From NCBI RefSeq assembly GCF_037038585.1, contig NC_092524.1, forward strand, positions 46,213,001 to 46,277,000: a stretch of DNA of 64,000 nucleotides, given 5' to 3'. The notes under the pieces are model-generated. The model was not told the DNA's origin. It made no database searches and worked only from the letters and a program-made list of their open reading frames with translations. Each line of letters starts with the position of its first letter. The stretch's first letter is position 1. The stretch comes from Patagioenas fasciata. Taxonomy: Eukaryota; Chordata; Aves; Columbiformes; Columbidae. A program made the position numbers and the translations under genes. Shown here in pieces: positions 3,151 through 64,000 of the stretch.

Positions 3151-3289
3151 AAATAAATGCTCCTCTTCAGCAGGGTTATTTTCTACCTTGGGCCCATTTC
3201 CCACCTCAGGTTACCAAGCCACAGCCCCCCTGGTGTGCGAGGCAGGGGTACCCAGTGCTGGCTGATGGGGTGTCTACCAGCCCCCACCG

Positions 3290-3900
3290 CAGACTGCTGC
3301 CTTCTGCCCGTGGGGGCTCCCGCGCGGCGGGACACCCGGTCTGAGGGGCTTCCCCAGCAGGGCCGAGAGGGCAGTCGAGCAGCGGCAGAGGGACAGACTG
3401 GGCAGGGTGCCCCGCCGGCGGGGCCAGTCGCCGCCGGGCGCCGGCAGCCGCGTGGGCAGGACGCCCGACAGGGGCCAGGGCCGCCGCCGGCTCCCAAACA
3501 AACAACAGCCGCTCCCGCTGCCATGGCGACCGAGCCCCACCCTCCGCCGCTGCCATGGCGACGGGGCTCCACCCCTCCCACCGTGGCTGACGCCGCCGCC
3601 TGCGTCGCCCGCGAGCTCTGGCGGGGAGAGGAGGGAGGGGGAGAGCGATGACGTTGTCGGTCCGTTGCTACAGAAACCACGCACCGACGTCAACAGGTCT
3701 GTGTGTTTTCAACGTTCCGCCGTCTCCCGGGCAACGTCAGGCGGTCCGCCCGGCCCCAGCAACAGCGTCGGGATTGGCCAGGAGGGGTGGGAGGCGGGGC
3801 CTGCGCGGCGCCGGCCCATCCCCGTCCCCGCGGCGGGGCTGGGCTGCGGCTGTGTGGCCGCGCGGACCCGCGGCTGCCCCGGGGTAGCCTGGGCATGCGC
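3290..3900. promoter_or_regulatory. CpG island promoter with RFX X-box-like motifs
   Basis: The interval is very rich in GC and CpG compared with its surroundings. Two identical 14-mers GCTGCCATGGCGAC (3517-3530 and 3549-3562) are near matches to the palindromic RFX X-box GTTGCCATGGCAAC. GTCTCCCGGGCAAC at 3722-3735 fits the RFX half-site pair with a 2-bp spacer, and GTTGCTACAGAAAC at 3664-3677 is a weaker fourth. CRE-like sequences lie near 3649-3655 and at 3686-3693, and an inverted CCAAT box (GATTGG) lies at 3772-3777. X-boxes with CCAAT and CpG islands are typical of ciliary-gene and some ubiquitous promoters. The direction of transcription and the gene served are unknown; both strands are possible. 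Confidence 0.6.
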
Positions 3901-6900
3901 TGCCTCGGCCTCGGAGTGCGGCGGCTTCACCGGGTACCCAGCCGAGCGAATACGTCCCTGGGTGGCCGCAGGGCCTATGGACCCCTCCTGCCCCCCACCC
4001 TGGGCCAGAAGGCGTGAGCAGGGCCCGACGGGAGCCTGGTGAAGGCCACTGGGGTGAGGGGTGTCACAGGCCTCGCCAGGGTGTTGGCCTCAGCGAGCAC
4101 CCCAAAAGTCAACTGGCAAGTGCATGTGGGCCAGAGGAGTGCCGGGCAGTCCCGGTGCTGGGTGGGAGGGAGGCAGGAAGGAGGCCCTGAGAGAACAGCC
4201 CATGCTGTGGGAGACCGAGCATCACCTGCCTTGTGCCTGGTGCTTGGTCTCTGTTCTGCACTTCCTCACTAGGCCTGGACCGCAGTCTCCAGGGTGCCTT
4301 CGCTCCCTGGGGGAGGCAGGAGGGAATCCCTGCTTACAGGAACCGGGGGTGGGTGGCTGTAAGCTGCTCTTCATGTCTGAGTGGGGCTTTGTGCTGGAGC
4401 ACAGGGTGCCTTTTCTCCAGCTGGTGTCTGCCCACACCCGCACTGGCGCTCTTGGTGCCCAAGGCAGCCAGCACGGTTAAGTATGTTAAGCAGGCAAGAG
4501 GTGCCAGTTTTGCACCCTGCTGAGCTCTGTTGAGATCCTAAAGCAAGTGGGGAGAAAGCAAGTTACCCTGTCCCTGCTGACTGTCAGCTGTGCCCTTGGC
4601 AGCTAGGCTCTCGGGAGGGGAGTACAGAGAAGGATGGGCACCCTATGTGCAATCACTGGTCAAACTGAGTCCCAAAGTGGATCATTGTGCCTCTTTGTGG
4701 GGGTTGGTACTTGAATTTCTAGACCTGTACTTTCTCGCCTGTTTATTGTCTACATGCTTTCCATCTGACCTCAACAGGGAAGGACATGGCCAATCTCTTC
4801 AAGTGCTGGTATGGGCCTGGATAATGGCAAGTGCTTTCCTTGATGTGGAACAAGCTGTGGGCCGGCAGCAGTGAGCAACAGAGACTTCTCCAGACCCTGT
4901 TCAACCATGCAGAGATTGAGCAGAGCACCCCAAATCATCTGCAAATCTCATACTCCTTCCAGGTCTCTCTGCACAAGCATACACTTAGGTCTTGTTGCAC
5001 TTGCGTGGATACTTAGGAATGAGTTCACACAAAAGATGTTTCTCCCTCCCAGCAGTTCCCCCCAGCCAAACCAAATTGCTTGGCAGATCTAGATCCTTTG
5101 GGAGGATCAAAGCCTCGGGGCTGGGCTGGCAGTGCTCCACACTGTTTACGTGTATGTATATTCATGGCACTGTTAAGCCCAGACCATTTAATAATATTGA
5201 ATTTCATATTTATTACATTTCTTAAATACCATCTAAGGAACCTCAGTTTCCTGGGGTATTCCCAGTGTTTGTTCCTAGGGCAGAGATGGCCAACAGCCCG
5301 TGTAGCCACCCCTCATCATTCTCTTGCTGCGTTACTGGGGTCTCTATTCCTGCACTGCGGTGTCTTTCCACAGAGCTAATGGCTTCCTTCAGCTCTGCCT
5401 TGATGCAGCCTGACTGTCCAGCCTGAGGTACAGCTCAGCCAGAGCAGGAAGCAAGCACTCTGCTCTCAAATCTCACTGTTACCTTCCAGCAGCAGCAACT
5501 GAACGTGACTCCCTCTGGGTGAGGGCAGGCTGAGTCTTTGTGAGTCCCTGCAATAGCCCCATCACTACGAGAGCCAAGAACTCAAAAAAAGAGACCTTAC
5601 TTGTGTTAATGGCTGTACTCTGGGGCAGCCCTCCTGGTATGCTGGTCTCTGACATGGATGGCATAGGAGGAAGGTGATCTGGGGACTACCTCCAGTGAAG
5701 CAGTGCTGTTTATCCAAGCAGTGGCCGAGCCTCAGGCTGTCCCACTCCCTCCCAGGCTATCTTCAGCTTTGTGATCCTTTGTTTATCCAGAGTTCCCTTG
5801 AGCTTTTCCCCAGAGCACTCCCCAGTCACAACAATTAGAGGTTTTCTTTCTGTCCTGAGCCGAACAATCTTCAACATCCTGTCCCTTCCTTTAATTCGTC
5901 TGCTTTGTTCTCCGCCCACAACAAAATCTCCTTAGCTAAGCACAGTGGCCTTTTCCTCCTTCATCTCAGCACTTCCTCCTTTGCTACCTTTGGCCCATTT
6001 TTTTCAAGAGCCACCGCACCGATGAAGGAAAGGACCCCTTTATCCAGCCCCCAACCCCTTTATCCAGAGCCCACCCCACACCATAAGCATCACCATGGCT
6101 GCCTGTCTCCATGGAGGAAGAGGCAGCTTGTGCAACGGGACCATCCAGCTGCCACCTCTAGAAAACTCTTGGATGCAAAAAGAAGCCCAGGCTTTCTCTC
6201 AATGGTGTGTGTGTTTTACTGCAGGCTCCTTGTGGGGTTCCAGCGAGGAAAGTGCAGCTGTGCCTGCCTCATTTGGATCTTGTTTGATCAGGAGAATCAG
6301 TCCGTCTGTCACTGGGTTTGAACATGTTACCTCTCACCAAGTGCAAGCTTATTGCCTTTCATATCTGGGATTTCACTTCTAAATATCAAGTGGTTCCACA
6401 AATGTGTGGGTCATTTTGTTTCAGGTGTTTTCCTCTCCTCTGTGCCCAGCTGTTCAATGCCCTGGGATTATGACTGTGAGCATGCACAATGCCCTGGGAC
6501 GGGCCTATGTCACTGAAGCCAGTGGGGAGATAAGAGGCCAGCTTGGCTGCAGTGTTCCAATTCTGTGGCACTGCCATGGTGCACAAAGGGATGGCACCGG
6601 TGGCAGCAGGAGCTGTGGCTGGAGAACTTTGCACTTGAATTGCTCTGGGTTATGAACCCTTGCTTGTGGGACAACAGCTGCCAGCCTGGCCCTGGGACAA
6701 TGGAGTGTGGAGGAAGTGCTATGATAGGCAAAGTCATCTTTTGGACCTACTGGATGTGAGCAGCACAGGGTTTTGTCAGCGGGTGGAACAAGGTCTAGCC
6801 ATGCCTGGTGAGCTATTAGAGTATCCACCATGGTGCAGGTGAAAGCAGCAGGCAGAGTGGTGAGAATGGGTGGGAGGCCTTAACAGTGTTTGTAGTAATT

Positions 6901-13475: not shown

Positions 13476-15775
13476 AGCTGTCCTTATGTTACCTTTTTGC
13501 ATCACTTCCCTGTGACCCTAAAGGGGTTCCCTATCCTTTAATTTAGACTGGGCTTTATAAACTGCAGACTAGTGCTAGCTGCCTGAGCCATCAGGATGGG
13601 AATACCATTAAGGCCAGACCTCAGGGCTGGCTGTGTCTACACCCTTCTCACCAAGCCTGGTGGGCAGCAGGGTCATGCCTTCCCCATCTGATCTGAGTCT
13701 GGTTCTCTCCTGTGCCTCTGCATGCCACCTGCTGTGGCCTTTCAGTGGCAAGCTGGAGGCCTCACTGGAAATGACGTAAAAAGGGGCATGCGAGTTCACG
13801 CCTCTGAATCGGGAAGGCCATCTAAATTGTTTACATATACCTAGCAGCCCAACTTCTTCATGCCTGGAGAGGGTAGATATGCACCTTGACTCTGGGTACC
13901 CCTGTGCTTGGTCTGGCACCCCTAGGAGCAGCTACAGCATATTTGTCTTTTGGCCATGAGGGGAGGAAAAGTGCTCATGCACTTTATTCTCACTTTTGGC
14001 TGAATGGTATAAGGCAAAATACTGCCCTTGCCCCTCAGCTTCTATTAAAGCTAGCCTAGTCCTTGAATGAGCTGAGTTACAGCAAACAGCCCACATGCTC
14101 TGGTAATGTGCCTCTCCTGGGGCTCTGTGCAACATGGCCTCTCCTGCCCCAGTCAGTTTAGAGGCTGCTACCCTGTCATTCCTGCTGCCTGTGCACTGAA
14201 GTGCATGCCCCTCTGTCAGGACAGCAGCAGGGACAGGCTGCCCCTGTGTGCAGAGCTCTGCTCTGTCCCTGATGCTCACACAGGAACATTCCCACAGGAG
14301 CAGCACCACCTCCCTGATGGCCTCCAGCTCTCAAGAACTCCTTTCTCAAGGTGAAGGTAAAGATGCCACCTGCACTGGCACATGTGTCCAGCTGAAGGCC
14401 ACCTTGATGCTGTGCTCTCAGGCAATCTCTGCAGGCTAGAGGTTTCTCTGATGTTCAGGGCTGGGTTTGTGTAACTCCACATTTCCTGGTCACTGCAGCG
14501 GGCTCTGCTTTCTTCACCCGTTCAGTAATCAGAACCCACACAGGATGTATCTCATCTCAATTCCCACTTCATAGCTTGCTCAACAAGGCCAGCCCTGTGA
14601 AAAAGCAAATATGCACACGGCTTCCCATCTTTCAACATTAAGCTGGAGGCAGTGTTGACAACTGACGAAGAATGACCCCACTTGCTACTGAGATGCCACC
14701 CACTGAGAAGCAGCTACTTTGATATCACCACTTGAGTTTACAAGGGCAATGCCCAGGCACAGCAAATGCACAATAGTGCTGACCCCTGAAGCAGTCATGT
14801 AGGTGTAGCTGCAAGAGAGTGAGACTTCTGTGACAAGTAACCCTGTGAAGTCAGTAAATCTGGAATCACAACGTGCCTTCTGCTGAAAGACCATCAGGTT
14901 CAGAGCTGAAGAACTGAGAGCTCTCTGAGCACTCATACATGCTGTTGAAATCACCAGATGTTCAGCACAGAGGCAGAAAGGACAGGGGTCTAGAGAGTCC
15001 CAAATATCACACAGTTCCCCCAAAGCAGGCAGAGCGATCCTGGCTCAGTCATCTCTCGTGATCATTGGAGAAGTTAAAGCAAAATCTAGAGCTGAATTCT
15101 GAGAGATGGCAGTCCTGCAGCCTAACTGAGGCTTTTTATTTCCAGCAGCAGCAAGTGCCAAGTGTGTCAGGTTTTGCATTTGTTATGCAACTATGTCAAA
15201 CTCAGGGGTGGCACTACATGAGACACATCACGTTTAACCCCAGGTTCCAGCCCTACTCCTTGCCTTCAGCCAGGGATGATCTAGAATTCACAATGTACTA
15301 CACAAAATTTATGGCTTGTCATAGACATGATTTATCTGCTTCCTCACATTTGAGAATGCTGTAGTGAAATCTCACTTAAATCAGTGGGAATCTTTCTACT
15401 AACTTCAACAGAGCCATGAGAGGGAGTAACACATCGGTCTCTGCTTGGAATGGATTGCATGCATGTGCTTCAATTATAAACTGTATCTGATACATCACAC
15501 AGATATCAGTACAAAGCTTTGTGAAACAAAACAATGGAATGAGATAAGACAAGCAGGTAATGCTCACATTATTTCTGACACCTCCTGTGCTCCTGATCCC
15601 ATTGAGGGCAGTACTGTAATTAATTCTTAGAAATGAAACTGGAACACAATGCAAGGAATAGTGGAATCGTTATTATAAATTACAAAACGTAGAGCTGTAA
15701 AACAACGTGGAGAGCCTTAAACATGTTTACAGTAGAACAAAGATGGCCTGCCTGGCAAAGTAACCCCGGACACAG
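13476..15775. other. Intergenic, FOS 3' flank
   Basis: No gene-like open frame is seen. Small open frames on both strands lack recognisable domains or consistent splice sites. Composition is average until the CpG island begins near 15.78 kb. Confidence 0.5.
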
Positions 15776-15779
15776 GGGG

Positions 15780-16700
15780 GTGCTGCGGATCCAGAACTGT
15801 TTCGGGGCTGACAGAGGCTGCCGTGTCGACACGCTCCTGCGCACCCCGCCCCCCCCCCCCCCTTCAGCGCTCCGGCCCCTTGCCGCGGCGGCCCGTCTCC
15901 CCGCAGGCCCGAGGGCTGTGCGCGGGGGCCGGAGCTGGCACCGCTGCCGATACCTGAATTCACCGCGGAGCTTCGCAGCGTCGGGCCAACCCCCGCGCGA
16001 CCCCGTGGGGCTCTGTCACGGCGCCGGGAGAACGGCGGAGAGGCCCAGCACGGGGCCGAGGCGGGCCTTCCCCGGGACCCTCCGTGCTTGCGGGGGCGGT
16101 GCAGGCGCTCCCGGGCCCACTCCGCCGCAGGCACAGTCGCTCTCCCCTCGGGCGGCCGGGCGGGTCACCCAGCGCCCCACCACCTTCTCCGGCCCGGTCG
16201 GCGCTGCGGGGGCCGCCGCCTCCCCCGCCGCCCCGGGCCGCGCCTGCGCGCCCGCCGCCGTGTTGTCTGTTTGGTTGCCAGGGTGCCGCGCGGCCGGCGC
16301 GTCAGGGACGTGACGTCCCGCTCCCCGCGAAGACGCTGCGAGCCAACGCCGTGACGCAAGTACTTCCGGCCGTACCCATATATGGCAAAGCGGCGGCGCC
16401 CTCTTCCCGTGGCCACTGCTGGGTGTCGGTTGGCGCGTGGGGCTCGGGGGCGGGAAGGTTCTAGAAGGGCGGGGGGCGCGTGAGGGCGGGGCCGTTGGCC
16501 CAACGGCCGGGGCGCGCGGAGGTGTGCTTCAGCCTCGCCCGGGTCGCCCGGCCCTCCCCGTCCACACAGCTGGGGACACCGCTCAGTGCCCGGGCTCGGG
16601 AAGGCATGGAGCTCGTGGCTGAGCTCCGTATGGCGCGGCTGACCGGGCTGCCTGGGCTCCGTTACTCCTCCTCCAGCTCTCCCGTCCGCTTTGGAGGGTG
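15780..16700. promoter_or_regulatory. CpG island downstream of FOS
   Basis: GC and CpG content rise sharply, with a 14-base C run at 15849-15862 and dense CpG to about 16.7 kb. The island holds long, low-complexity frames with no recognisable protein. Its right half contains a set of transcription-factor motifs like those of the FOS promoter, annotated separately. Confidence 0.8.
16311..16385 (+). promoter_or_regulatory. SRE/CRE cluster: CArG box beside ETS site
   Basis: TGACGTCC at 16311-16318 and TGACGCAA at 16352-16359 are CRE/ATF-like. ACTTCCGG at 16362-16369 is a strong ETS site. CCATATATGG at 16376-16385 is a perfect, symmetrical CArG box for SRF. An ETS site 6 bp from a CArG box is the layout bound by SRF with ternary complex factors, and the added CRE-like sites repeat the input logic of the FOS promoter. 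The cluster lies about 5.6 kb downstream of the FOS start site. It could be a FOS enhancer, a promoter in its own right, or both. Confidence 0.65.
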
Positions 16701-16883
16701 AGGTGTCAGGAGGAGGGGTGGGAGCCTCCCTGGCTCCGTGTAGTGCTGGGCTTTGAATACTGGGCGGATTCACAGGTAACAGCTTATACCTCTCGCTGTC
16801 CTAGATTGGGCTTCCCTAGCATTGCCTTTCCACCTGCAAATCTCTATGAGAGCTGTGATGATGGAAAATCAAAGGTTACATAA
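16606..16883 (+). CDS. Possible small two-exon gene, unrecognised (hypothetical, may be non-coding)
   Basis: This is a hypothesis from sequence signals only. Downstream of the SRE/CRE cluster an ATG at 16606 opens a frame reaching a GT donor at 16698 (GGAGG then GTGAGG). A pyrimidine-rich acceptor ends at 16804, which would give a 107-base intron. Splicing keeps the frame open to a TAA at 16881-16883, for a 56-residue product rich in Ser, Gly, Pro and Leu with no recognised domain. An AATAAA follows at 17068-17073. A second possible donor (CACAG then GTAACA) lies at 16775. I recognise no homologue. The RNA could equally be a non-coding immediate-early or enhancer transcript, and the signals could be chance. 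Confidence 0.22.
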
Positions 16884-17067
16884 TTAAACTTAAATGCATG
16901 ATAAGAACTAGCTTTCATCGCCATGTGGAATTAAGTGAAAGCAAATAATTACACTGTCAGTGTCAGAGCTACCCTATGAAACCTGACTTCAGTGTAGCAG
17001 GTGTCCAGGTACCTGTATCCCTGAATACTTGTTCTGCTGGTTTTCATTGTATTGTTGTTACTTTGCC

Positions 17068-17073
17068 AATAAA
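17068..17073 (+). terminator. Possible poly(A) signal for the 16.4-17.1 kb transcript
   Basis: A canonical AATAAA in AT-rich sequence about 190 bases after the candidate stop codon. Single AATAAA hexamers are common by chance in AT-rich DNA, so its meaning depends on whether the upstream transcript exists. Confidence 0.3.
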
Positions 17074-17559
17074 TCTGACTCCTGCTCTCAGTCAAAATAG
17101 AACAGGAATCCTGCCAAAGAAGTCATCTGAGCCAGTGGACAGTCAAAAATAAATGGGTTGTTCAGAGGAGATAAGGGTCTAGAAAAAAATAAATTAGTAT
17201 TTTTGTTCTACACTGACTGTAGAGGAAGTTAAGATTCCTGTGCTTATACTTGGTTTTGTGACAGATTTATCAGAGGGCATGTGTTAAGCTGAAGTGTCCA
17301 TATAAAGGATAATTAAAGATATAAAAAGTGCTGAGCAGTTGCACTGCATGATGATCATCCAGGAGTTCTAAGGGAAGATTGAAATAGCTGAACTGCTTAC
17401 TAATGGTTTTGTGTAGCATCTCATTTAGAAGTGCTTTGATAACAGAGAATATGAAGATAGTTAATATGCCGATTAAAAAAAAAAAGGGTGACTAGAAAAG
17501 TTCTGGAGTGCTTCTGAGCAATTAGCCTGTTAACTGTACCAGGCAAGTTAAATAAAACT

Positions 17560-18400
17560 ATTTTTAAAGGCGAACTAGTGGATGTGTGTGGTGGGAATGG
17601 TGTACCAGGAGAGGTGGCAGAGCTTTTCTAAAGAGGAGTCCTGTGATGAGTTGGCAAAGCATGTGGAGAGCTTATGTGATCTCCTTGGGTTTCTAAAAAG
17701 CATTCAATAATATCTAGCAGCAAAAGCCTCTGAAGAAACTATAGTAAGAGGGACAGTTTTCACATGGGTAGATGATGCTGGGTTAAAGACAAGCTGCTGT
17801 AAGGGCAAAAAATGTTTTCCTGATGGAAGGAGTCAATATGTGCCATTCCACAAGGATCTAATTTGGAGCCTGTGGTCTGAGAGGAACTTCAGTAAAACTT
17901 CACAATACAAAGTGAATGGGTGATGCAGTTCGACACAGATAATATAAAGTGTTTTAAATGGGAGATAATCCAAACTTCAAATATCCAGGAACAGCCTAGA
18001 AGCTGATTTATCTCTTAGGAACAAGATCTTGGCATAATAATAACAATTCTGTGAAAACCTCAGCTTAAGGCTTGGTAAATGAATAAATCCAATGTTGGGA
18101 GGTAAGAAAGAAGGGCTAGAGAACAAAGCAGAGAGCATCATTATGGCATGGGCTAGATCTACCATGTGCCCATACTTTGTGTGCAGTTCTGATCTTCAGA
18201 AAGACATAGAGCACTGTGAGAGGTGCAGAGAAGTGAATAGGTGATGTGAGGTGTGAAACAGCTTCTGAGTGAGCAACAAATGAACTAACACTCATGGGCT
18301 TTACAGAGACATGAGTGAGGGCAGGTTTCTTTCAGCATGAGAATGATGTGCATCAAATGAAACTTGGGAAAAATGTGGAACAAACCCAAACTTGATGAAG
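17560..18400 (+). mobile_element. Ancient CR1/L3-like LINE relic, ORF2 reverse-transcriptase and 3' part
   Basis: The DNA can be followed against the consensus of old amniote CR1/L3-type LINEs as I remember it, in the sense direction and in the right order. The recognisable blocks are the stretch before the YADD-type motif (about 17650-17730), the 'tctgtactgggaccag' equivalent (about 17850), the 'accagatcttgg' equivalent (18021-18035), 'agagaacaaa' (18117-18127) and 'tgtgcagttctg' (18180-18192). Reading frames are destroyed by many indels and substitutions, so it is a fossil with no coding capacity. It is much more decayed than the copy at 29.7 kb. Confidence 0.7.
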
Positions 18401-20776
18401 TTGCTCACTCCATATTATTATGAAAAACCTTGTTGCATGATTTTGTGAATACTACAAGGTTTTTTTTTGAGCTGAAAAGAAGTCTTGAAAACGCACATAA
18501 GAAAAAGCTAATGAGGACTATTAATTACAAAAATAACTCATTTTGCTAAGGAAGTCCTGATTTTTGTACATTTCTGGGGCCTTGGAGAATACTGCGGGGA
18601 GGCAGCACTACACCCTGATTTTGTCCTCACAACCTGCTTTGGGTGGTTGCTGTCAGGTAGTGTCAGAAGACCGTGGCTGACAGCAGAAAGGGGGAAAAGG
18701 TGTGCTTGACCTGATCAACTATGACTATTCCTGTGTGGGTTTGTAAGTACTTAGCTGAACTTTTGCTCCTATTCTGTGCTTCCTTATTGTAATGGTATTT
18801 GAAATTTGTTTAAATTACCACAAGATGTGATCTCATTTGTCCATGCTCCTCATCCGTTCAGATCGTTTGCTGATAAAGTTGTTCTTTGACGCTGCTTCCG
18901 GCAGACTTTCCAGACAGTTGGTAGGCTGGTGACCTGGTGAGGTGCTGAAGTGAAACTAACACCACTCATTCTTCTCATTTGGAAGCAGCGGATGTCCACA
19001 AGGGACATGGATAATATATCAACAGGATATCATGGGAAAACAAAAGAAGGTCGTAACTATCATGTGGACAAAATATCTTTATTATTTCCAGTTATGGACC
19101 TCTTGTTCTGTTTCCCCCCACTGCATCTTTGGCTTGCAGAACAACATTTTCAGATCTTCTTCACTGATTATATTTGAGCTCTGTTTTCATACAAATGTTT
19201 TGTAACTTGATCCTGTTGGCTAAAGACAACCAGCTGCAACTTTGAAGGAGTTATTCTAGTTCTGATTGCATTGCATCTTCCATTTGGCAAGGGTTTAGCT
19301 CTTTTTAAATAGCCCATCTTGTATCTTCTTATGCTAGGGAATAAAGGAAGTGAATGCAACTCAGAGTATTTATCTGGTTTTGTTTACAAAAATAAATATT
19401 TGTTTTGCACAGATAGCAGCATTGCAAAGGTGGTAAAATACAGTAGCAGTGTCAGGCCTAAAGCATATAAACTGAAATGTACAAGATTCAGATATTATCA
19501 AGTTATTGGGGTTTTTAAATAAAACACAACTTTGACACTGCTCTGAAACACAGTGGGTGCTTCAGGATGAGAATGATGCAATTCCTGCTATGAAGCATTT
19601 GAACTCTAATTGTAGGAGGAACGACAGTTGCTTATAGCGCGCAGTAGAAAGAAGGACAAGCTCTGTTACGGCATTTAAGCATGTGGTATGGCAACTGAAT
19701 TAAAGTAGTAACGTAACCTAATGATGATGTGTCACTAACCTTGAGGACACAAAGGAAGAGAAACCAAAGTAATTTGCTGTCATTACATAAGAGTTGAGTG
19801 CAAAGCCAAGAATGGAGTTTCAGCACAGATAAGGATTTCACTCTGAGCCTTTCAAAGAATTCAGCTCTTCATAACTTTAACTGTTCATGAGAGTCTCAGC
19901 CTTCCCCCTCCTTTTTTTTTTCCCCCTGCTGTTTGTCAGCAAGTTCCAGGTACCACAAGCCTGGGTTCCTTGGGTATGTCTGAGCTGTTAAATCAAAGGG
20001 GTTAGGTAGTGAGCTTGAGCATTGGACTGCTGATTTTCTACCCTGCTCTATTACACGGTAAAAAGCCTGGTCTCTGAAACAGTTTTGGCCTGTGTCAGCT
20101 AGCAATCTCCAAGATGGTGCTTGGGTGTAGCTCAGAGGGTGGCGTGTTTCCCATGAGGAGGAGGCAAGACTCTGTGAAACTGAGCTCTCTCCACTCTATT
20201 GGGGGGTCATCCTGCAATATCCTAACATACTTCATCCTATCAAGCACACCTCTGTGCTTTGGCATATGACGAGTCCTTCAGCTTCATGCCATAAATTGCC
20301 CCTCTGGGCTACAGCACAGCTCTTGTTTCTTCAGTTCTGAGTGTTTGAAATAACACCCCTCAAATAATACTTATGCCTTAGGGCTATGGCGACACCACAC
20401 ACAGTTCAGAGGTGACTATGGGCCAAGTGCTGTGTAGTGTGGATGTGGTGAGTGTGTGGCCCTTCCACCACAGAGCAGTACCTGGCCCTGCTTCATTTGG
20501 TATTGCAGATGCTACTTTTGTCACCACTCTATAAATGAGGTCTGGCAGCTTAGAGAAGGATTTACCTCTCACTGTAAGGGTCATGTGAAGTGTTCAGTGC
20601 TCCAAAAGGAATCCTGATGACTGCAGTGTATGGTAAACTACACCCAGATCATCCTAAATATTAGATGGGATTTAAGGGAAACATGAACTTAGGTTTTTCA
20701 CTGAAAGGTAGATACATAGCTTTAATTGGAGACAAATACAGTGAAATAACACACAAGGAAACATGTTACTTTAGCT
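18401..20776. other. AT-rich intergenic sequence
   Basis: No gene-like frame or clear repeat was recognised. The region is AT-rich with short T- and A-runs, such as those near 18460 and 19910, and may hold further unrecognisable old repeats. Confidence 0.45.
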
Positions 20777-22985: not shown

Positions 22986-23990
22986 CATGGAGTCGATGAT
23001 TGGCAGTGTCAGTTTGGTCACGGAAAGTAGAGTAACGCACTGGTGGTGTGTGTGAAAGCAGCTGAGTGGTACACAGCATTTGTGGCAAGGACCTCCTCTA
23101 GATGTATGAAACATCTCTCTGCATATGTATGATCTGGATGACATGCTCTGACAGATCTAAATAGCAGTTTAAAATACCATCTTTGCTGTCTGTCATGGGT
23201 TGTTGGCTCTCCCAGGTGACAGAAAGAGAGCCTGTGTGTACCCTCCCCATCCTCAGTGCTGCTAGCTAACCAAGCAACTGAGGAAAGGGGCTTGTGCAGA
23301 GCTCCACAATGCCTAGTGACAAAGGCTGAAGTTCACAATCCTTTCTGCCTCCCCTGGAATGGATGTGTTAACCCAGTCCAGGACAGCAGGTGGAGAGACT
23401 GGCATGGGAATGCCTGAAACCACCTCTGCCAGTTGCATCAACAGAGGAGTCAGACCCCTGAGGCAGTGCTTTTAGGCTCAGCTACCTCTAAACCCAGGTC
23501 TTTGGGTTCCCGCAACATCCATCCACTGGGATTTCTTTCCCACATGTCTGATTTTCCATAGTTGTCATCTGTGGATAAAGTGCCATAGTTTAAACCAACA
23601 TGTTACAGTTCTTACTGGATCTAACAGAAGCATGAAAATGTCTTTGTGGCTTCGATGCTCAGTTGTGTGATGAATATATGAACATGACCCTGAGCTGTAG
23701 CAAAGCTATCTGGTAAAGTGGTACATGGCTGCTCAGGTCTGCTGGGTTTTGGCAGTCCCCCTTCCAGGTCCCGTGTCAGTGGAAGAATCTTGGTGCTACT
23801 TGGGATTTCATCATCCCAGTCCCTGGAGTCATGTGGTTATGTAAGAATTTAAATTTCGGTTTTTGTTAAGCACGTGTTTAGATCTTGACATCAAGGAGGA
23901 GAGTTGGGCAATATGACCCCTGTATCTCCAGACGCTTGAAGCAACAAGCAATGTTCAGTGCTTACCACAGCAATATCGAGCCAGTCTTGG
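22986..23990. other. Intergenic, nothing recognised
   Basis: Average composition with no supported frame, repeat or RNA gene. Confidence 0.45.
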
Positions 23991-23999
23991 GAGTTACTG

Positions 24000-24350
24000 G
24001 GATGTGGCTGGTGGGCTGGCACCCGCGGGGGCAGCCGGCCGGGCAGCCCCCTCCACACGACTCCCCGGCTGAACAAAACGCCCCCAGCCTCTCTGTGTCT
24101 CGGCCAGGTCCCCGTGCAAGTCCCCTCCTGAGACTCGCGCTCCTCGGCGGCTGCTCAGCCTCTCGTGTCGCCGCGGCTCCCCCGTGACAGCCGCCACTGT
24201 CACCGGCTCACCGCCGGGGCTCTCCCGGCCCGGTAAGAGCATCCCGCAGTGCGCTCTGCTGGTCAGGCCCCTGGCCCGCTTCCCGGCGCTCGGCACTCGT
24301 CACTGCAGCCCTGGGCAGTCCCGGCATGTTTTTGCAGCCGTGCGGGAATG
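24000..24350. promoter_or_regulatory. Small CpG island, possible promoter
   Basis: CpG density rises sharply over about 350 bases in AT-richer surroundings. A good donor-like CCCG then GTAAGA lies with its GT at 24233-24234 on the plus strand, which could end a first exon. No coding homology was seen on either strand. It may be a promoter of a non-coding RNA or a CpG-rich enhancer. Confidence 0.45.
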
Positions 24351-24539
24351 CTGCTGGTCCGGTGGGCAGGTCTTCATTCCTCGCCTTCCACTGCTCCCTG
24401 CTGGTCACCGGGAAGCTGAGCACTGGTGGAGAGAAGCAGAAGTGACTAGTTCTAGTTGAGGGGGCTTGAATCAGGGTGCTCTGACCACGGAGGTCATTAT
24501 TCCAGCCCCCGGCTCAGACCACGTCGAACAAGAGTGTGT

Positions 24540-28880: not shown

Positions 28881-29240
28881 TTGCTCTTCCGGAGGGGGAA
28901 AGCAGGCAGAAGGAAAATCTCTTGCCTGCAGGAGCACTCCTGGCCCGGGTGGGATCGAGGTAAGGCAGAGGCCTGGCTGGAGGTGCCGGTGTTAGCAGCT
29001 CTCTACAGCGCCGTGCCCAGGCCGTGGCTACACTGCTGCGGTCTGAAACGAGACACCCCGCATCCTCTTTCAGCCCATATTAGCGTTAGAAGTGGCGTCA
29101 CGGCCTCCCGGCACACGGTGGTGACGGCGACGCCTGCGAGCTGCGGCCGGTAGAGGGGGCAGCCGGTCGGGCCCGCTCCCGGCAGCGGGCAGGCGGCGGG
29201 GGAGCGGGGCAGCGTCACGGACCCTCTTCAGCCGGGCTGC
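28880..29240. promoter_or_regulatory. Small CpG island with splice-like signals
   Basis: GC and CpG content rise between about 28.94 and 29.24 kb. At its left edge an acceptor-like tract ends CTGCAG at 28931 and a strong donor-like GAG then GTAAGG has its GT at 28960-28961. A CRE-like GGCGTCACGG lies near 29093-29102. No coding homology was recognised. A promoter or exon of an unannotated transcript is possible. Confidence 0.4.
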
Positions 29241-29699
29241 CCCGGCGTAGCTGGCGGCTGGTGCGAGGCTGGGCCAACTCGGCCTTGGCCAGCTGCTCAG
29301 GGGGACTCGGGCTGACGGTGTGGCCTGGGCTCCTGGAGTGTGTTAGCGCTTCTGGAGCCAGAGCTGCCCAGCATTGCCAGGGCACGGGCCTGCAGCTCCT
29401 GGGATGGACAGAGCCAGCCAGCCCTCTCACTGCACTTTGCCATACCTGGGAAAAACACAAGGGCTGGCAGCTGCCTCCTGTCAGCTCTGTCAGTGTGCTC
29501 TGCAGCTTGGCTTGGCTCGGCTCTACAGAAATTCTCCTTATACCAGTCACAGGGTGGAACAGTCGCACAAGAGCTGACTGTGGATTGACTGCCAGGAAAG
29601 GTGAATTCACCTGCTGTAGAAAACAGGGTCTTGCTTCCCCCTTGCAAAGTCATCTGGCTGCTCTGATAGGTCTGGCTGGCTCTGGAGGCTCCTTCCCTA

Positions 29700-30582
29700 A
29701 GTAAGTTTGCAGATGACGCCAAGCTGGGTGGGAGTGTTGATCTGCTGGAGGGTAGGAAGGTCCTCCAGAGGGATCTGGACCAGCTGGCTTGTTGGCCTGA
29801 GGCCAATTGTACGAGGTTTGACAAGGCCAAGTGCCGGATCCTGCACTTGGGTCACAACAACCCCAGGCAGCACTACAGGCTCGGAAGAGTGGCTGGAAAA
29901 CTGCCTGGCAGAAAAGGATCTGGGGGTGTTGGTCGATGGCAGCTGCATATGAGCCAGCAGTGTGCCCAGGTGGCCAGAAAGGCCAACAGCATCCTGGCTT
30001 GTATCAGGCATAGTGTGGCCAGCAGGACTAGGGAAGGGATCGTCCCCTTGTACTCAGTTCGGTGAGGCCGAACATCGAATCCTGTGTTCAGTTTTGGGCC
30101 CCTCACTGCAAGAAAGACATTGAGGTGCTGGAGAGAGTTCAGAGAAGGATGACAAAGCCGGAGAAGGGTCTAGAGAAAAAGTTGTGAGGAGCAGCTGAGG
30201 GAACTGGGGCTGTTTAGCCTGGAGAAAAGGAGGCTGAGGGGAGACATTATCGCTGTCTACAACTATCTGAAAGGAGGTTGTAGCATGGAGGCTGTTGGTC
30301 TCTTCTCCCAACTAACAAGTAACAGGACAAGAGGAAATGGCCTCAGGTTGCTCCACGGGAGGCTTAGATTGGATATTAGGAAAAACTTCACAGAGGGGGT
30401 TGTTAAGTATTGGAACAGGCTGCCCAGGGAGGTGGTTGAGTCACGATCTCTGGCGGTATTTAAAAGATGTGTAGATGTGGCCCTTAGGGACAGGGTTTAG
30501 TGGTGGACTTAGCAGTGTTTGGTTTATGGTTGGATTTTATGATCTGAAAGGTTTTTTGAAACCTAAGTGATTCTATGATTCC
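29700..30582 (+). mobile_element. CR1 LINE, 5'-truncated, end of ORF2 and 3' tail
   Basis: The element begins inside the reverse-transcriptase domain, with a frame reading [10 protein letters not shown] from about 29706 (the catalytic F-A-D-D motif). It continues through 'RDLDQLA', '[19 protein letters not shown]', '[19 protein letters not shown]' and 'REGIVPLYS', all standard CR1 blocks, with frameshifts and stops between them. The tail shows 'gaacaggctgcccagggaggtgg' and ends with the ATTCTATGATTC terminus at about 30582. It is inactive but much less decayed than the other copies. Confidence 0.95.
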
Positions 30583-52600: not shown

Positions 52601-54500
52601 GCGAGTGCCAGCCATGCACAGACTGGTAGGTGTGGGGTCCCTGCTCCTCTCCCATGGGGCTGGCTGGTGGGGGGAAGAGCACCCATGAAGAGGTCAATAT
52701 TGGAGGCTGGGGCTGTAGATGCCTATGTTGCAATGACATGTCCCAGCTCTGCCCACTAGAGAAAGGGAAATGAAAAAGGGTAAAATAGTGGAAGACAGAG
52801 CAGGAAGAGCTCTCTTCCAGTGTCCAGCAGAGAAGGGGAAATGGCACTTTCCCACCTTCCCTTTGGCATGGAAGGGCTGCAGGAGGAACCACTGTGCTGG
52901 ACTGGGCCTTGCTCAGCTAGGTCATCAGCCTCCTCTGAAATCCTCTTGGTTTTCCCTCTCCCTTCCCTCTGGAGGCAACAGATGTGATGGAGCTGCCATG
53001 CCCTGAGGGCAACTTGTGTGAATTGCTAGAGAGACATGTTGTTTGTCAACCACATTGAGATCCCTCCAGCTTAGGGCACTAGAAAAGTCTGTCCTATCTG
53101 ATATAGAAAGGTGAAGGAACACTTATGGGAAAAACATATCTCAGCTCGTGCTTCTCCCTTCCCCCCAAGAGGAGGTGCCAAGATTAAAGAAATACTGGGC
53201 TTGTATGCAAAGGTATATAGAAACTATTTTGCCTGTTTGAAAATAACAAGATAAAAGAACAACAGCATGAGCAGAGTGGGAATGAGGGTATGTGTGCAAT
53301 GTCCTGCCAAGCCAGGCTGTTACCTATTTCTGTATGGGACAACTTGGGCAGAGTATATCCTATATTGGACACAGTGTTTCTGGTCCCCTGTTCCTGACCA
53401 CTCCCAGTTCCCCAACGGAATTCTCTTTCTTGCTGAGACACAGATGAAGAGGGCAAAGCTGGAAGTGCTGGCAGTGAGACCTTGTGGATGATGAACACCA
53501 TGAATTGTCAGTGGTAAAAATAAGTGAAATTGGTGAATGCTGAAAAGAAACAATGACTGACAACCCAAGGAGAAGGAAAACAAGGTAGGGTGGATGGTGT
53601 CCCTCTGTGCAGCTGGGTGGGTTGGAAGGATGGGGCAAAGAGATGGCAGCATAACTCAGCTCCATGACAGACTCTTCTTGTCTGCAATGACCTGCCCACA
53701 GGGCCCAGGGACACAAAAGCGGTCTCAAAAGAATTTGCTGGCTGCGAGTCTTCTTTGGGTGACATGTCTCGTGTCTTTCCCCATTTACTTTGGGCATAGG
53801 CTCAGGCAGAGGGAGCTGGGCAGTACCTGTCAGCCCAGCAGTTTTCTTAACCGCTCTAGTATCTTTTTTGTTTGTTTTTCCAAAGAATAAAGGAGCGTTT
53901 CTCTCCCAAAATGCTTTAGGAGAAACAGCCCTGCAGCAACCAGTACCTGTGGCAGGTCCAGTGTGGCCCTGCGGCTGTGCAGAGCTTTGCTTCCCAGATC
54001 AGTTTGACAAATACAGGTGGGAAGAGGCCGATGTCAGAAAGAGGAAGCACGCAATTCAAATCCATGCAAATAAGTTATCAGGAAGGCCCCAGTTCACCAC
54101 TTGCTCCCCCTTCTCCAACTGACATGACGGTGCCTGTGCTTTGGGCAATGCCCCTCCTGGGACATTGCAGTAATGTTAAGGGAAGGAGACCAAAGCAGCT
54201 GGGCAGAGGAACCTTGAGCCCCTCTGCTTCCTCCTGGCTCTTCTCCATCCATGTCAAAGGGCTAGTGTAGCTGGGATTGACAGCCCTTGACCCACGTATG
54301 GGGGAGAGACATCAGCATGTGGGGTGTGAGCAGGCCAGGCTGAGGTGGGATGAGAAGTAGCTTGCTTCCCATGGGGTGGGGGGATTGCCCTACAGCCCTC
54401 CCTGCCCCTGTGGCTTTGCTGCTCTGGGTGAGGTGGAATTGATGCTGGGGAGCCCTGGCGACTCTCTCTGGTCCTTTGTCTCCTTGTTCCCAGGCGCAGG
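49700..54500. other. Non-coding stretch before the 55 kb CpG island
   Basis: No gene recognised. A short AAATAAG-rich simple stretch lies near 50030-50085. Frames on both strands are short and without domains. Confidence 0.45.
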
Positions 54501-55700
54501 ACTGAAGACCGGGGGCTCTGCACAGAGTCCGCCACTGCGGGCTGGCCCAGGCAGGGCTACTGCGGCACCGGGCCGGATCACCGGGGTTGCCCGCCACCGG
54601 ATCTTGGCGTGCGCGGGGGGCGCGGAGCGCGGAGCGGAGAGCTGAGGGGGCGGGGTGGCGCAAATAGGAGCGCAGATGGAGCCTGCGCCCGGCCGAGGGG
54701 GTGCGAGGTGCCGGTGCGCTTTGGTGCAGAGAGTCGGGGGGTGCCGGGGCTGCCGGCTGCGAGGGCGCAGGGGTGTCAAGGGGTGGCTGGTGCGGAGTCC
54801 CGGGGTGCAGGTTGCAGGGATGCTGGGCTGTGGAGTGCGGGATGCCGGTGCGCGGGATGTCGGGGTGCCGGTGCCCGGCTGGTCCCACCCCTGCGCGGCG
54901 CTCCCCGCCCCACAGCCCCGCTCCCCCGCCCTCCCTGACGTGTGGCGCTGGCAGCCCGACCGGTTCCGCATTCCCGACCCCTCCCCGCAGCCCGGGGCCG
55001 CTATATAACCGGGGCTGATGCAACCCACCCCGCCGCCCGCCACAGCCTGCGGGAGGCGCGCAGCGGGGCGGCGGGGGGCGGAGGGCCAAGGCGCCCCGGT
55101 GGCGGCCGGCACCGACATCGGCACCGACATCGGCACCCGGCGGGGCCCGGGGGTCGGGGCAGCGCCGGGCGGCGGAGGCGGCGGGGCTGAACCTGCAGCC
55201 CGCGGCCGGGCACCCCGGCAGCCCGGTCCCCCTGCACGGTGGGTGCGGGCGCGGGCGGGGGGAGCACCGGGCAGGCCGGGATTGCGGCAGGAGGTGGCGG
55301 GGGCTGCGTGGTGGGGACGCTCGGAGGACTATCCCTGCACCCCGCGGCGGCGGGCAGGGTGCAGCCCTCCGGGCGACAGGGGGTCCGGCTGCCAGCGATC
55401 GGGCGCAGCGCGGAGGTGTAGGGAGACATTCCGGGGGTGGCGGCCAGAACCGCACAGGCGGCTCCGAGCAGGGCTTCTGCCCCCGCATCCAGCTCTGCGC
55501 GGGGGCTAGGGCTGCCTTTCGGGGGTGCCCGGCACTGGGATGCTACTCCCGCACTGATATGATTCAGGGGCGGTGGGGAGCGGCCTCTCCCCGCTTCTGG
55601 GTACCCTCCTTGCCTCCACTTCACCTGTTACCAGGCGCGCAGGTGAGGGGTCCGGACTCCCTGTGGCCACTGTGTGTGTGCGCCGCGGGGAGGGCTGGCG
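54500..55700 (+). promoter_or_regulatory. CpG island with TATA box; candidate JDP2 promoter and first exon
   Basis: CpG and GC content are very high. A clean TATATAA lies at 55002-55008 and a CRE-like TGACGTGT at 54936-54943, giving a predicted plus-strand start at about 55032. Donor-like sites follow at 55239 (CACG then GTGGGT) and 55643 (GCAG then GTGAGG), either of which could end a non-coding first exon. In other vertebrates JDP2 is the next gene downstream of FOS in the same direction, so this is a sensible JDP2 promoter candidate. No JDP2 coding exon was found up to 64 kb; it would have to lie beyond the window. Confidence 0.55.
55108..55138 (+). repeat. Short tandem repeat, 12-base unit
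   Basis: The unit GGCACCGACATC occurs twice in full and then partially, about 75 bases after the predicted start site at 55 kb. It accounts for the repetitive MSVP-like peptide in the opposite frame, which is not a real protein. Confidence 0.8.
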
Positions 55701-56153
55701 TTGCGGTGAGCCGTGCTTCCAGCCCGCGGGGCCCGGGAAGGAAAGGGGCCCCGGACGTTCCCCTACTACTCGGTCCCAAGTCCGCTTTAGCAGTCAGGCA
55801 TGGAGTTGAATGGAAGTTGCATTCTTTTGCATGATCTGCTCCAGGAGGCACTTTTCTTTTTCCATGGAAGGGAAGTAGGTTTGAGAGCAAATTGGGGGAA
55901 AGGGAGAAATACCAAGAGAGCAAGAGCCACATTATGTTTCCATTTTCCTTTAATGAAGGCCCTGTGGAGGTGTATTTGAAAACACAGGGTCTCCTATGCC
56001 TTCAAGGAGGGTGAGAACACTGCGCTGGCTGGTTCCAGGGCCATATGCAGTGTATGGTGGCCAATGAAATGGGGCCTGGCTCGTTCTCTTGCTTGTCTTG
56101 GCAGCCTGCTCCATGGCTTGTATTACCAGCCCTGGAACACAACCACTGCCAAA

Positions 56154-56178
56154 CTGTGTGTGTGTGCGTGTGTGTGTT
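56154..56178 (+). repeat. TG dinucleotide microsatellite
   Basis: A run of TG units with one C interruption. Confidence 0.85.
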
Positions 56179-57510
56179 TGGACTCTGAGAGCTCAGCAGA
56201 AACAAATGCTTCTGCAGCTCCGACCAGGGCTTTTTAGCTAGTTTTGAGAAAACTTGCATGAAAACTGAATCTGGAGGCTGTTGCCAGAGCCTGCACCGGG
56301 GAATTTGTTGTTGAGTGCTTGTGTGAGGACATCTGGGAATGCCAGTCATTGGAGTTCAGATTGTTAGTATGACTCCTCCTGATTTTTAAAAAGCAAAAAC
56401 CTGAACATCTGGGGTATGACTGAGTGGGTACAGGAGCTGCTGTCCAAACCATTCCTGTGTTAAGCAGCAATTGGTTGTCTCAGGTTCCTGGGGTCTGAGG
56501 GATTAAGAAGTTCTGCTGAACGTTAACATGCAGGTTGCTGCTTCTGTCTCCTCACTGAGACATCTATGGATGCTTTTCCCTCCTCTTTATGGCTGAGTGT
56601 TGAGTGTTTCCCTCCTTACAGGATGCAAAGGTCTCTGTGCTGCAGTCATTTCTAAGGAAGAGAGATACTCCCTCACACCTCTTCCCTCCTCCTGCCTCCT
56701 CCATCTGAGCGTTGTGTCCAACAAGGCTGCTCAAGCACAGGGCAGTGCTGAGCATCTGCTCTGTGGGCTCCTTCCCTGGGCTAGTGTTTACAACTTCAGC
56801 TGCATTGCCTGGGCCAGGTGCTCGGCAGCACACAGCGTCCTGAGTGTGAAGTTGTTGAGAGGCTCTCTTCACTGCAGTAGATTGTTCATGGTGGCCCTGA
56901 CCCCAAGAGCAAGGAAGGCAGAGCCATGGTGTGTGGCATGGACACCTTGCCAGCCTGCACGTGTCTAGTGCAGCAAGGAGGGGAGCATAGCAAACCTGAT
57001 ACTATCTGTCTTTGACTGCTTGCATGGATCTCTCAGTTGCTTGGACTGTCCAAAGTATCAATCCAAACATTGCAGGCTATTTTAGCATGCAGCCAGGGTG
57101 CTGAAGGTCCATATGGGCCTCTCAGCTGAGTAGGGCTGTCGCAAACTAGCCAGAGCTGGTCTTTGTGTGGACTAGAGGCCTTGTGGATGACCCTGGCATT
57201 CAGGGCATAATTTTGAGGAGTTTCTATGGGGGAACTCTCATCTCTGAGGCCATCCTTGGCCCCTGAGGGCAGAGCCCTGTGCGGAGTAGGGTTGTCTTCT
57301 TGAAGATTCCAGCCCTGACGACATGTGATCATGGAAGGTCCTGGGGGATTTCAACAAGTCAGATGTCAACCTCAGTGTCTGAACTGGAGACTAGCTCAGA
57401 CCAAGATATTCCAATCCCTTTGAGCTGCTTCAGGCAGAAATAGAATAGGTTTCACCTTTCTGCTCTGTACTGCTGTCCAGTGGGTGGTGCAGCATAGTTG
57501 AATGTCTGCC

Positions 57511-57595
57511 ACAAATAATTAATTGCAATCTCTCATATAAAACTGTGATAATTAATTGTATTTTTTGCAGTTATTGCAATTAATTATTGCAATAA
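57511..57595. promoter_or_regulatory. AT-rich near-palindromic block with C/EBP- and homeobox-like motifs
   Basis: Three copies of TAATTAATTG-like sequence alternate with TTATTGCAAT and ATTGCAATAA within 85 bases. The right half (57571-57595) is a near-perfect palindrome. ATTGCAAT matches C/EBP-family binding and TAATTA matches homeodomain binding. It lies about 2.5 kb after the predicted start at 55 kb, a typical place for an intronic enhancer, but low-complexity AT sequence could look similar by chance. Confidence 0.35.
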
Positions 57596-60462
57596 AGGAG
57601 TCTTGCTGTGCTAGGTGCTGGACAAAACCCCACTGTCACAGATTGCTTCCAAGTCAATCGCTGCATTGCAGTGGCGGGGGCAGTGTAATGCCAAACTAGA
57701 ACATTTTACTACCCTGTGAAGGTATGAAGAGAAATGCTCAGGGAAGGAGAAGGACTGTGAGCTGACTGCTTTGCTAATGGCAGAGGGGAGGTTATTTACA
57801 CAGCTGAGGACTGGAGGACCAGTATTCCCCCTCCTCATAATGGGGATAAGGAATCAAAGCATCAGACAGGCAGGTGTGGGGGCTTGATGGTGGGACTCAG
57901 TTGGGTGGGGGCTGCAAAATTGCACTTCTGCTGAGGAGAGGCTGTGTGCTCTGGGCTGCTCCATGGGTACAGCATAGGGAGTTGTGTGCAAGAGAGGCAG
58001 CAAGGCTCTCTGCATTCCTGTTTTCAGAAAGCTTTCTGTAGCCTTCTGTCTGTGAACGACTCAGATGTTCCTCTGCCATCTGTGTGAAACTGGATGTGCA
58101 GGACTGAACCCATACCATTCCCACTCAGGAAATGGGTTTAGACTTTCATCTCCTAAGGAACTGTCCTGCACAGCTCCTTCCTCTCTTTGACATTGTGCCC
58201 CTGCAGTCCACTCACTGGAGTTTGGGATGGGACATTACATGTGTTCACAAACCCTGCGGTTCTTCTCCCGCTATGTGGGATTGCCTTTGGGAAGAGGGAA
58301 GAGCAAGGGCAGCAGCTGGAGGTGTCTATGTGAAGGGCACAGATGCTTTTTTCTGCAGACTGGGCACCTGGTTGTAAGAGCTGTCTCTCCCTCTTGGGAT
58401 GGCATGTGGAGGTGGTGAGGCACTATGGTGTCTAGCATACAGAGGTGGCATGCTGCAGCTCAGTGCACCTGGTAATCCGTACTGTGATCGTGCCTTACAC
58501 TGGCCTTTAAATAAAGAGGAATCTCCCTGACACCGTAAAATGCTAAGTAATGTTAGGGCATGCACAGTTTTATCCCAGTGTGTGTCACTGCAGCTCTTCA
58601 GTGCAGTCCAGGTGATGGGTTCCTTGACATCAACAGGTTCAGCAGATGAATGAATGGATGCAGAGTGGCTGTTCAAGTCCATGTTTGCCAGCAGTACTGC
58701 ATGGGTACCTGAAAAGACTGTTTACAACCAAAGGGCTTGGCTGCCTCTGTGTTCTGATGGTTGGGCAAATAACTTTGATACTGATCAGTATGGCCTTTGG
58801 CACTGACACTGCAAGTTAACTGCTTTTAGCAATGCAAACCAGAAAAAGCTAGACAGGAGATGGGGTGACCTGCTGTAAGGCACTACTCAAAACTAGGTTT
58901 ATGAGATGTATCCAGACCAGACAGCAGTTGTGTGGGAGTGGGAGAGCATTGCATTTTAGACAACAGAAGAAAACCGTAAATGCGTGGCTAGGTACTTGTG
59001 GCACTGGGACTATGGGATAGTGGCTTTCTGCCTCCAACTTCATTGTGCTTAACTTGGCACTCACTGGGGGCTGAACCTCAAAGTGGAAGAAGGTCTGTAG
59101 GCTCCAGTGACCCTCAGCAGCCTACAGTCTCCCCAGCCAGAAGAGTCCAGATGGAAAAAAGCAAGTGGCTCTGTGCTTCAGAGAAGGAGTGATAGCCAAT
59201 TGCCCTGCCTTTGTTTAGAAGTGACATTCTTGGGGCATGAGAAGTTGGGCATGTCAGGAAAGGGTTTTTATATAAATCATCCTTCTGGCAACAGAGGAAC
59301 TAGAAAGATGTAATGTATGACATACAGGCTGAGCAAACTTGATAGCCAGGAGCTAAAAAAAAAGTTTAAAAAATGACAATAAAGCCATAGTAAAATCTAA
59401 GGAACCAGAAGTTGTTCCTCATGGATGGTAGCACTACTTGCGATTTCCACAGCAGAAGTATTACCTGTGGGCCAGGAGCAGATGAAAGGCCAATTGCTGT
59501 GACTTAGGTACTCCAAGACAGTACATACAAATGGCGATAGTATGTTAAGTGCTTACACACTGATGAAGAGATAGAAGATTGCTTGTGTGGTGGCTTGCAG
59601 GCTTTGGCAGTGCTCTGATTCATGGCAGCTGACGAGTAATGGCAGGCACCCAGGTCGAGCCTGGAGTGAGAGAACAACAGGCAAGCCTGGCCTTGGTTCT
59701 GCAGCCAGCATGGAGAAGGACTGGTAGGACAGACTTTGCCTTAGTGCAGCACTTAACATGGACAAAAGTAAAGCATGCTGCTATGTACAGTGTCACAATC
59801 TGCTGGCTGGCAATATTAGGTGCTAGACTGGCTCTCTGAGCATCAGAAGGGTACTTGGATCAACCATTCCAGATGTCAGAGCATGTAAAATAGCTTATAT
59901 TGGAAGAAACTGTGATTTAGGAGACAGCAATATGGAAAATAAAGTTGCAAACAGCCCTCACTCTTGCCAAGGAAACTGACAGCGAAGATAAGACAGTAAA
60001 GGCAGTTTAAATTGAAGTGTGACTGTCAGAGCCTACTTTGGGATGTTGTGGTCCTCTCTGCCCAATGATGCTGTTGACACAGCAGTAGCAACTGCATTTG
60101 CTTTATAAAGAAGCGAACAGCACCTCTGGATAATCAGGAATGCATAGGATGGTCCTGGGGGAACAGCGGATACAAACTAAGGCAGGTTGTGCACAGGGAA
60201 ATAAATGTATGATTTCAACGCAGGTAGGCATTCCTGTGCCTGTTTTGGTCTGTGGGTAAGAATAGCACTAAAGAGGTGGCAGGAGGGGTGTGAATACAGA
60301 CTGGTAAATGGAGTACAGGCCCCCAGGGACACTGGGTTACGTGGATTATGCCTACGCATGTCAGATTTATGCCGTAACTGCTGTGCAAACTTCAGCTCTT
60401 TAAAAAACAAGCAAGCAAAAAGAGTCCTCAGAAAAAGCAGCAGCAAAGTCAGAAGGGGGAGG

Positions 60463-60500
60463 AAAAAACAAACAAACAAACAAACAACAAACCAAAAAAT
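60463..60500 (+). repeat. CAAA tetranucleotide repeat
   Basis: About six CAAA units followed by degenerate A/C-rich sequence. Confidence 0.85.
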
Positions 60501-63268: not shown

Positions 63269-63350
63269 TGCTGACCCTGCTTGAGCAGGGGGTTGGACCA
63301 AATGATCTCCAGAGGTCCCTCCCCACCTCAACTGTTCTGTGACTGTGATC
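63269..63350 (+). mobile_element. CR1 LINE 3' tail fragment
   Basis: It shows the diagnostic CR1 3' sequence: 'ctgaccctgcttgagcaggg', 'ggttggacca', 'atgatctccagaggtccct', and the 'ttctgtgactgtg' terminus. Only about 80 bases remain, which is common for 5'-truncated avian CR1 insertions. Confidence 0.9.
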
Positions 63351-64000
63351 GAGCAGTCCTATCTCAGATGCAGCTCTACTCAAGTTTTCAGCCTGGTGCT
63401 GACATAGATTTGTCACCCGAGGTGAGGGCTGAGCAACTGTGTCAGCTGGCTTGACAATGTGTGTGTGCCTCTGCTTAGCACGCACTGCCTGGACCAAAAG
63501 TCTGCAGTGCCTGTAACCTGGTCTCTCAGTGGCTGAGAGTGGATGCTTTGGAAAGAATAGCACAAGTGCATGTTATCCCTCTTTTAATGCACTTCCTTGC
63601 TCTGGGAGTCAATGCTGTCAGAGCTTCCAGCAGACTAATGTGACTGATGGTCCTTTGTGGATCTGTCTTCCATGAGTTTGCTCAATTGTCCATAGAATCC
63701 TTGCCTTGTGACTGGCTCTAGTGGTTGTGGGAAGCTGCTCCATGAGATTTTGGGTTCACTGCTTTAGCCTGTTGCTCTCTCCTGACATCGCTGGTCCCTT
63801 TCACCACCACGTGGGTGCCTCCTGGTACGAGAGCTGGGTGGGATGGATGTCTGGAGGCTCCCGGAGTGTGCTGGGACCAGTCCAGCTGGGCAGAGCAGAG
63901 AGAGCAGTGCATGACACTGGGACACGTGGGTGAGTTGAGGGGGTGGAAGAATGGTTGCTGTGTGGACAGAAGTTGACTCTGCATGTTGTAACTGGGTCAC
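63351..64000. other. Non-coding end of window
   Basis: No gene, repeat or RNA recognised. Confidence 0.45.

Follow-up and report, generated by a model that had tools for sequence, protein, structure and literature searches.

A CpG island that lies beyond FOS in Patagioenas fasciata carries a compact group of FOS-promoter-like sites, and the question is whether it serves FOS or starts an RNA of its own. We analysed a stretch of 64,000 nucleotides around it, which corresponds to C5:46213001-46277000 in the genome (hereafter the window; all coordinates refer to it). An earlier note on this DNA had regarded the island as a separate serum response and CRE module. Its observation was confirmed and its interpretation was supported in part: because the sites are packed like a core promoter, the island is more probably an unannotated RNA start, which may double as an enhancer, than an independent duplicate of the control region of FOS. 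Literature searches, made by topics not specific to the island, found no paper on it.

The FOS-JDP2 interval and its CpG islands

The identity of FOS was borne out by its bZIP exons, with the start codon at 10882. Its promoter contains the SRE CArG box at 10433, the CRE at 10688, and the TATA box at 10705, and a putative poly(A) signal is found at 13449. TMED10 is located upstream of FOS on the minus strand. The coding region of JDP2 begins on the plus strand at window coordinate 64861, that is, 861 bp past the window end, and BATF is found near 90-93 kb in the same coordinates. The gene order TMED10-FOS-JDP2-BATF is the same in mammals.

The island studied here (Table 1; 15688-16715 under stricter limits) has the highest CpG o/e ratio of the six islands in the window, and its GC content and o/e ratio qualify it as a CpG island, as in orphan CpG-island promoters. 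The earlier claims that the island is a separate one and that its content is promoter-like are supported. The CArG box is about 2.9 kb past the putative poly(A) signal at 13449; the distance of 5.6 kb downstream of FOS given in the earlier note is counted from the FOS start region.

Several other features of the window were recorded. A large CpG island at 54425-55896 has a strong plus-strand splice donor at 55643 (CAGGTGAGG, score 11.3), and the two are probably the JDP2 promoter and the donor of its first non-coding exon. A palindromic full CRE, TGACGTCA, is located at 62439-62446, in the probable intron 1 of JDP2. Another island, at 3251-4061, precedes the FOS start by about 6.7 kb and is away from the TMED10 exons. 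Two small islands, 23950-24426 and 28911-29368 (o/e 0.70 and 0.72), have no recognised gene; they contain no perfect CArG box (one CArG-like sequence is at 29075), and each has a good plus-strand donor, at 24233 and 28960, respectively. Open frames at 29670-30500, with the plus strand as sense, look, by eye, like those of a CR1-type LINE reverse transcriptase. The region 17050-18700, with more G than C on the plus strand (0.16-0.47 in 150-bp blocks from 17100 to 18599) and almost no CpG, is perhaps an old repeat.

The motif cluster and its frequency

Motifs resembling NRF1, RFX, CRE, ETS, CArG, SP1, E2F, TCT, and heat-shock elements crowd within about 16240-16490, as pattern matches to consensus sequences taken from general knowledge. 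The box CCATATATGG has the CC(A/T)6GG core of an SRF-TCF serum response element, and the ETS site that such an element has near its CArG box is present as ACTTCCGG across a gap of 6 bp. Both had been claimed in the earlier note together with two CRE/ATF-like sites upstream, which we found as TGACGTCC and TGACGCAA; to these we add a third half-site, on the minus strand, inside GCGTCAG (16299-16305), a run of seven letters in common with the TGCGTCAG site of FOS. The heat-shock-element-like sequence GAAGGTTCTAGAA follows the predicted start at a distance of about 45 bp.

Table 1. Features of the CpG island at 16 kb and of the predicted transcription unit
Feature	Position	Strand	Basis or remark
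CpG island	15661-16720		1060 bp, GC 0.72, CpG o/e 0.92; sliding-window scan
NRF1-like site GCGCCTGCGC	16240-16249		pattern match, consensus from general knowledge
RFX/X-box-like half-site GTTGCCA	16274-16280	+	pattern match, consensus from general knowledge
CRE half-site CGTCA (TGACG on the minus strand)	16300-16304	-	pattern match
CRE/ATF-like site TGACGTCC	16311-16318	+	sequence match
CRE/ATF-like site TGACGCAA	16352-16359	+	sequence match
ETS site ACTTCCGG	16362-16369	+	CCGGAAG on the minus strand at 16363
CArG box CCATATATGG, perfect, palindromic	16376-16385		also best plus-strand TATA-like match in the island
TCT-initiator-like CCTCTTC	16400-16406	+	pattern match
Predicted first exon, to splice donor AGG/GTGAGG	16409-16697	+	start inferred; intron from 16698
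Heat-shock-element-like GAAGGTTCTAGAA, three units, perfect	16454-16466		pattern match

Across the window, CArG, ETS, and TGACG sites occur in the expected numbers. The three CArG boxes (4.78 expected; at least three in 83 of 100 shuffles) are a chance number, and the argument from the CArG box alone was therefore dropped. For TGACG, a count of three over the entire island is not unusual, being reached in 17% of 5000 shuffles; in the 300-bp core of the island, three were reached in 0.4% of 5000. When the whole window was shuffled with dinucleotides preserved, a CArG box with a strong ETS site within 25 bp appeared in 2 of 300 shuffles, and when the island was shuffled, in none of 5000, although these figures, like those from the genome below, overstate the surprise because the motifs were chosen after they had been seen.

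We then searched both strands of the genome (1.45 Gb) for the pair in one ETS orientation, with YTTCCGG before the CArG box and 0-12 nucleotides between them. The pattern matched at 36 places, and a single tandem array on contig C43 accounts for 12 of these. Of the 24 pairs outside the array, the 22 with loci were read. Five are in CpG-island-like DNA (GC of at least 0.6 and o/e of at least 0.65 over 800 bp). The present locus, with three TGACG half-sites, is the only one of the 22 that has at least two within about 220 bp; one other locus has a single half-site, and the rest have none. A reversed-pattern control gave 130 matches against 36 for the ordered pair, so that the genome shows no enrichment of the pair as such; the control pattern, however, contains no CpG and is not a fair match. 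Locally, the cluster is unlikely to have arisen by chance, and in the genome it is rare. The 301-bp core matches its own genome at one other place, weakly (50 bases at 84%, on contig C21). Searches with shorter pieces told us little: a 30-base exact pattern had no match in bacterial or archaeal genomes, an uninformative result, and a 14-base piece had at least 120 matches in viral contigs, taken as chance at such a length.

Core-promoter reading and direction of transcription

On balance we favour the reading that the island is a plus-strand CpG-island promoter, in the interval between FOS and JDP2, of an unannotated and probably non-coding transcript that would start near 16,409. Scored as a TATA box, the CArG box reaches 9.1 (the TATA box of FOS reaches 10.8) and ranks about 11th of 63,985 plus-strand positions, with a mismatch to the consensus at the first T (the TATA and splice-donor matrices were taken from general knowledge). 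TATA boxes lie at a usual distance from the start, and from this spacing a start near 16405-16411 is predicted; the predicted start region, about 16401-16420, overlaps the TCT-like sequence. With that start, a CRE/ATF site would lie at about -57, the ETS site at about -47, and the combined TATA/CArG element at about -33 to -24, and a short first exon would end at the donor at 16698. The predicted promoter may respond to growth and activity signals through SRF, paired with an ETS-family protein, and through CREB/ATF.

The direction of transcription was considered from the splice donors and poly(A)-type signals. The plus-strand donor at 16698 (score 8.9) is the best of both strands between 15.3 and 17.6 kb, and a plus-strand transcript would reach it before its first poly(A)-type signal (16883). 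Minus-strand donors of at least 6 bits lie nearest to the core at 15567 (7.5; 0.8 kb away) and 15347 (7.6), and a weak one (5.6) is at 16180. A minus-strand transcript would meet its first poly(A)-type signal 1.2 kb away, at 15135, behind the donors at 15567 and 15347, and minus-strand or two-way transcription is therefore possible. The order of donors and signals leans to plus-strand use, and the evidence for that direction is modest.

GC skew was examined in the same context. The known genes behave as expected of a control, with -0.087 in TMED10 (minus strand) and +0.076 in JDP2 (plus strand; P 8e-5). The mean skew is +0.059 over the 35 blocks from the island to JDP2 and -0.010 over the 21 blocks of the TMED10-FOS interval (P 0.006), and the change point was placed at the island (P 0.007-0.009). 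When two repeat-like stretches, one purine-rich and one a LINE-like relic, were also masked, the change point moved to 25 kb (P 0.027) and the difference had a P of 0.017. Compared with the JDP2-BATF interval, the stretch from the island to JDP2 has no significantly higher skew (P 0.11 and 0.21). In T/A skew no difference was seen (P 0.45), and the keto excess of the stretch is below that of JDP2 (P 0.036). The long-range skew would weakly suit germline transcription from the island on the plus strand. The local minimum of the skew, at 16408-16420, does not reach significance on its own (P 0.07-0.18), and local skew is a poor locator of start sites, because in the FOS control the minimum, near 11,056, is some 300 bp past the start. 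A depletion of AATAAA on the plus strand was not seen (22 vs 23). This asymmetry was set aside as a test of transcription; it is uninformative because 55897-64000, probably intron 1 of JDP2, shows 8 vs 0, in the unexpected direction.

No gene was recognised at the island in the searches that follow. In Pfam, no convincing match was obtained with 146 of the 177 plus-strand ORFs (at least 58 aa) and 142 of the 170 minus-strand ORFs (at least 62 aa); five families with one member each, at E values of 0.0099 to 0.047 among 288 ORF scans, were read as chance. Most ORFs outside the scan start beyond 55.1 kb, and short exons would be missed by it. A protein-coding gene starting at the island thus had no Pfam support in the ORFs scanned, and this reading was rejected. 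The 31-aa frame that runs from 16606 into the donor had no PDB match up to an E value of 5. The TCT-like start prompted us to consider a snoRNA host gene, and this was rejected, as the window contained no Rfam match at gathering scores. A retrocopy that would show the exon structure was not found either; 16395-16720 matches only itself in the genome. LINC01220, a human lncRNA that presumably lies downstream of FOS, was considered as a counterpart. The part of the source available to us places it at 14q24.3 by band only (PMC6658720).

Alternative readings and known systems

The readings discussed here, and the confidence that we attach to each, are not mutually exclusive. An ordinary constitutive CpG-island promoter, which is the unresponsive form of the preferred reading, is a real possibility although short of probable. 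The CArG box would then be merely TATA-like and not bound by SRF, with steady drive from NRF1, ETS, CRE, and SP1 sites. The high TATA score, the NRF1-, SP1-, and E2F-like sites, and the TCT-like start all fit, and four islands upstream of the window, one of which contains a TMED10 exon, have an equal o/e ratio (0.91 each). However, the box is a palindrome that fits the CArG consensus perfectly, and the ETS site 6 bp away makes with it a pair that is rare genome-wide.

A stimulus-responsive downstream enhancer with promoter character, in which SRF/TCF and CREB would bind the site and increase the output of FOS by way of looping and an eRNA, seems to us rather unlikely, and it can hold together with the promoter reading. 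The right motif classes are gathered in one 75-bp cluster that is unlikely by chance, and a signal response and an enhancer action on FOS are plausible. The arrangement, however, is like that of a core promoter, with a splice donor in the exon position. Enhancer 5 of mouse Fos is reportedly downstream of the gene. The parts of the reports available support Fos enhancers in rodents both upstream and, as the earlier note had said of mammals, downstream of the gene: in the rat, the eRNA of downstream enhancer-3 is induced by KCl and activation of this enhancer raises Fos mRNA (PMC7515708), and in the mouse, enhancers 1, 2, and 5 gain H3K27ac and eRNA upon stimulation (PMC9106336). The main text of a chicken eRNA paper, as far as available, does not name FOS (PMC12652509). 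Likewise from partial texts, a TFIIIC-bound SINE downstream of the mouse c-Fos start (PMC3744447) and a conserved promoter within c-fos intron 1 (PMC2888593) are elements other than this island.

It is improbable that the island is a far-upstream alternative promoter of JDP2, with the donor at 16698 joined to the exon in which coding begins at 64861. In favour of this, the two share a strand, the first coding exon of JDP2 contains some 5' UTR sequence and is preceded by a good acceptor, and the GC skew is positive throughout the interval; against it, the intron would span about 48 kb, and the nearer island at 54425-55896, with its stronger donor, is a simpler JDP2 promoter. A functionless chance cluster in GC-rich sequence would agree with the expected window-wide site numbers and with the excess of the reversed control (its pattern free of CpG), but is very improbable in view of the shuffles and of the accompanying promoter-like motifs and donor.

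It is a long shot that FOS and the island form a tandem of immediate-early promoters, with the island as the second, receiving the same SRF/ETS/CREB signals and making a non-coding RNA or a far-upstream first exon of JDP2, which would tie FOS and JDP2 to one input in cis. JDP2 is a repressor of AP-1. If the promoter fires with FOS, it would provide a built-in internal control for studying two adjacent promoters under one signal, and if it feeds JDP2, it would provide cis wiring for negative feedback on AP-1. If it is constitutive, it would be an ordinary unannotated promoter, though one that reporter assays and genome scans could wrongly present as an enhancer of FOS.

In comparison with the proximal promoter of FOS, the claim of the same combination of inputs stands for the classes of sites (SRF, ETS, and CREB/ATF) and not for their arrangement. 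In both, a CRE is close upstream of a TATA-like element, with 17 bp between the starts in FOS and 25 bp here. The SRE of FOS has its GGAT core on the plus strand, with 5 bp from the end of the core to the CArG box, and TGCGTCAG right after the box, whereas in the 16-kb island the ETS core is inverted, on the minus strand and 8 bp from the CArG box by the same measure; no AP-1-like site is beside the box, the nearest likeness to TGCGTCAG being GCGTCAG about 70 bp upstream. The CREs of the island are upstream of its CArG box, which is at the TATA position, whereas the CArG box of FOS is 272 bp upstream of TATA. Ternary complex factors tolerate changes in orientation and spacing, and an SRF-TCF complex on the island is therefore possible; SRF might then compete with TBP for the ten bases of the box. 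PMC2200674 was rejected as a source for a CArG-Ets spacing rule, since the part available uses planted motifs and gives no rule.

With the activity-dependent Fos enhancers of mammals, the island shares a location downstream of FOS, as in rat enhancer-3; the available parts of those reports describe no CpG-island CArG/ETS/CRE core (PMC7515708, PMC9106336). A further known class that is close to it is that of orphan CpG-island promoters. According to the part of the study available, about half of mammalian CpG islands are orphan and many of them show initiation (Illingworth et al. 2010, PMC2944787). Like them, the 16-kb island has promoter-like content, and among the ORFs scanned no gene was recognised that would start at it; if it belongs to the class, it would be expected to show initiation and H3K4me3. 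It is probably an orphan CpG island, a known kind of element in an interesting location.
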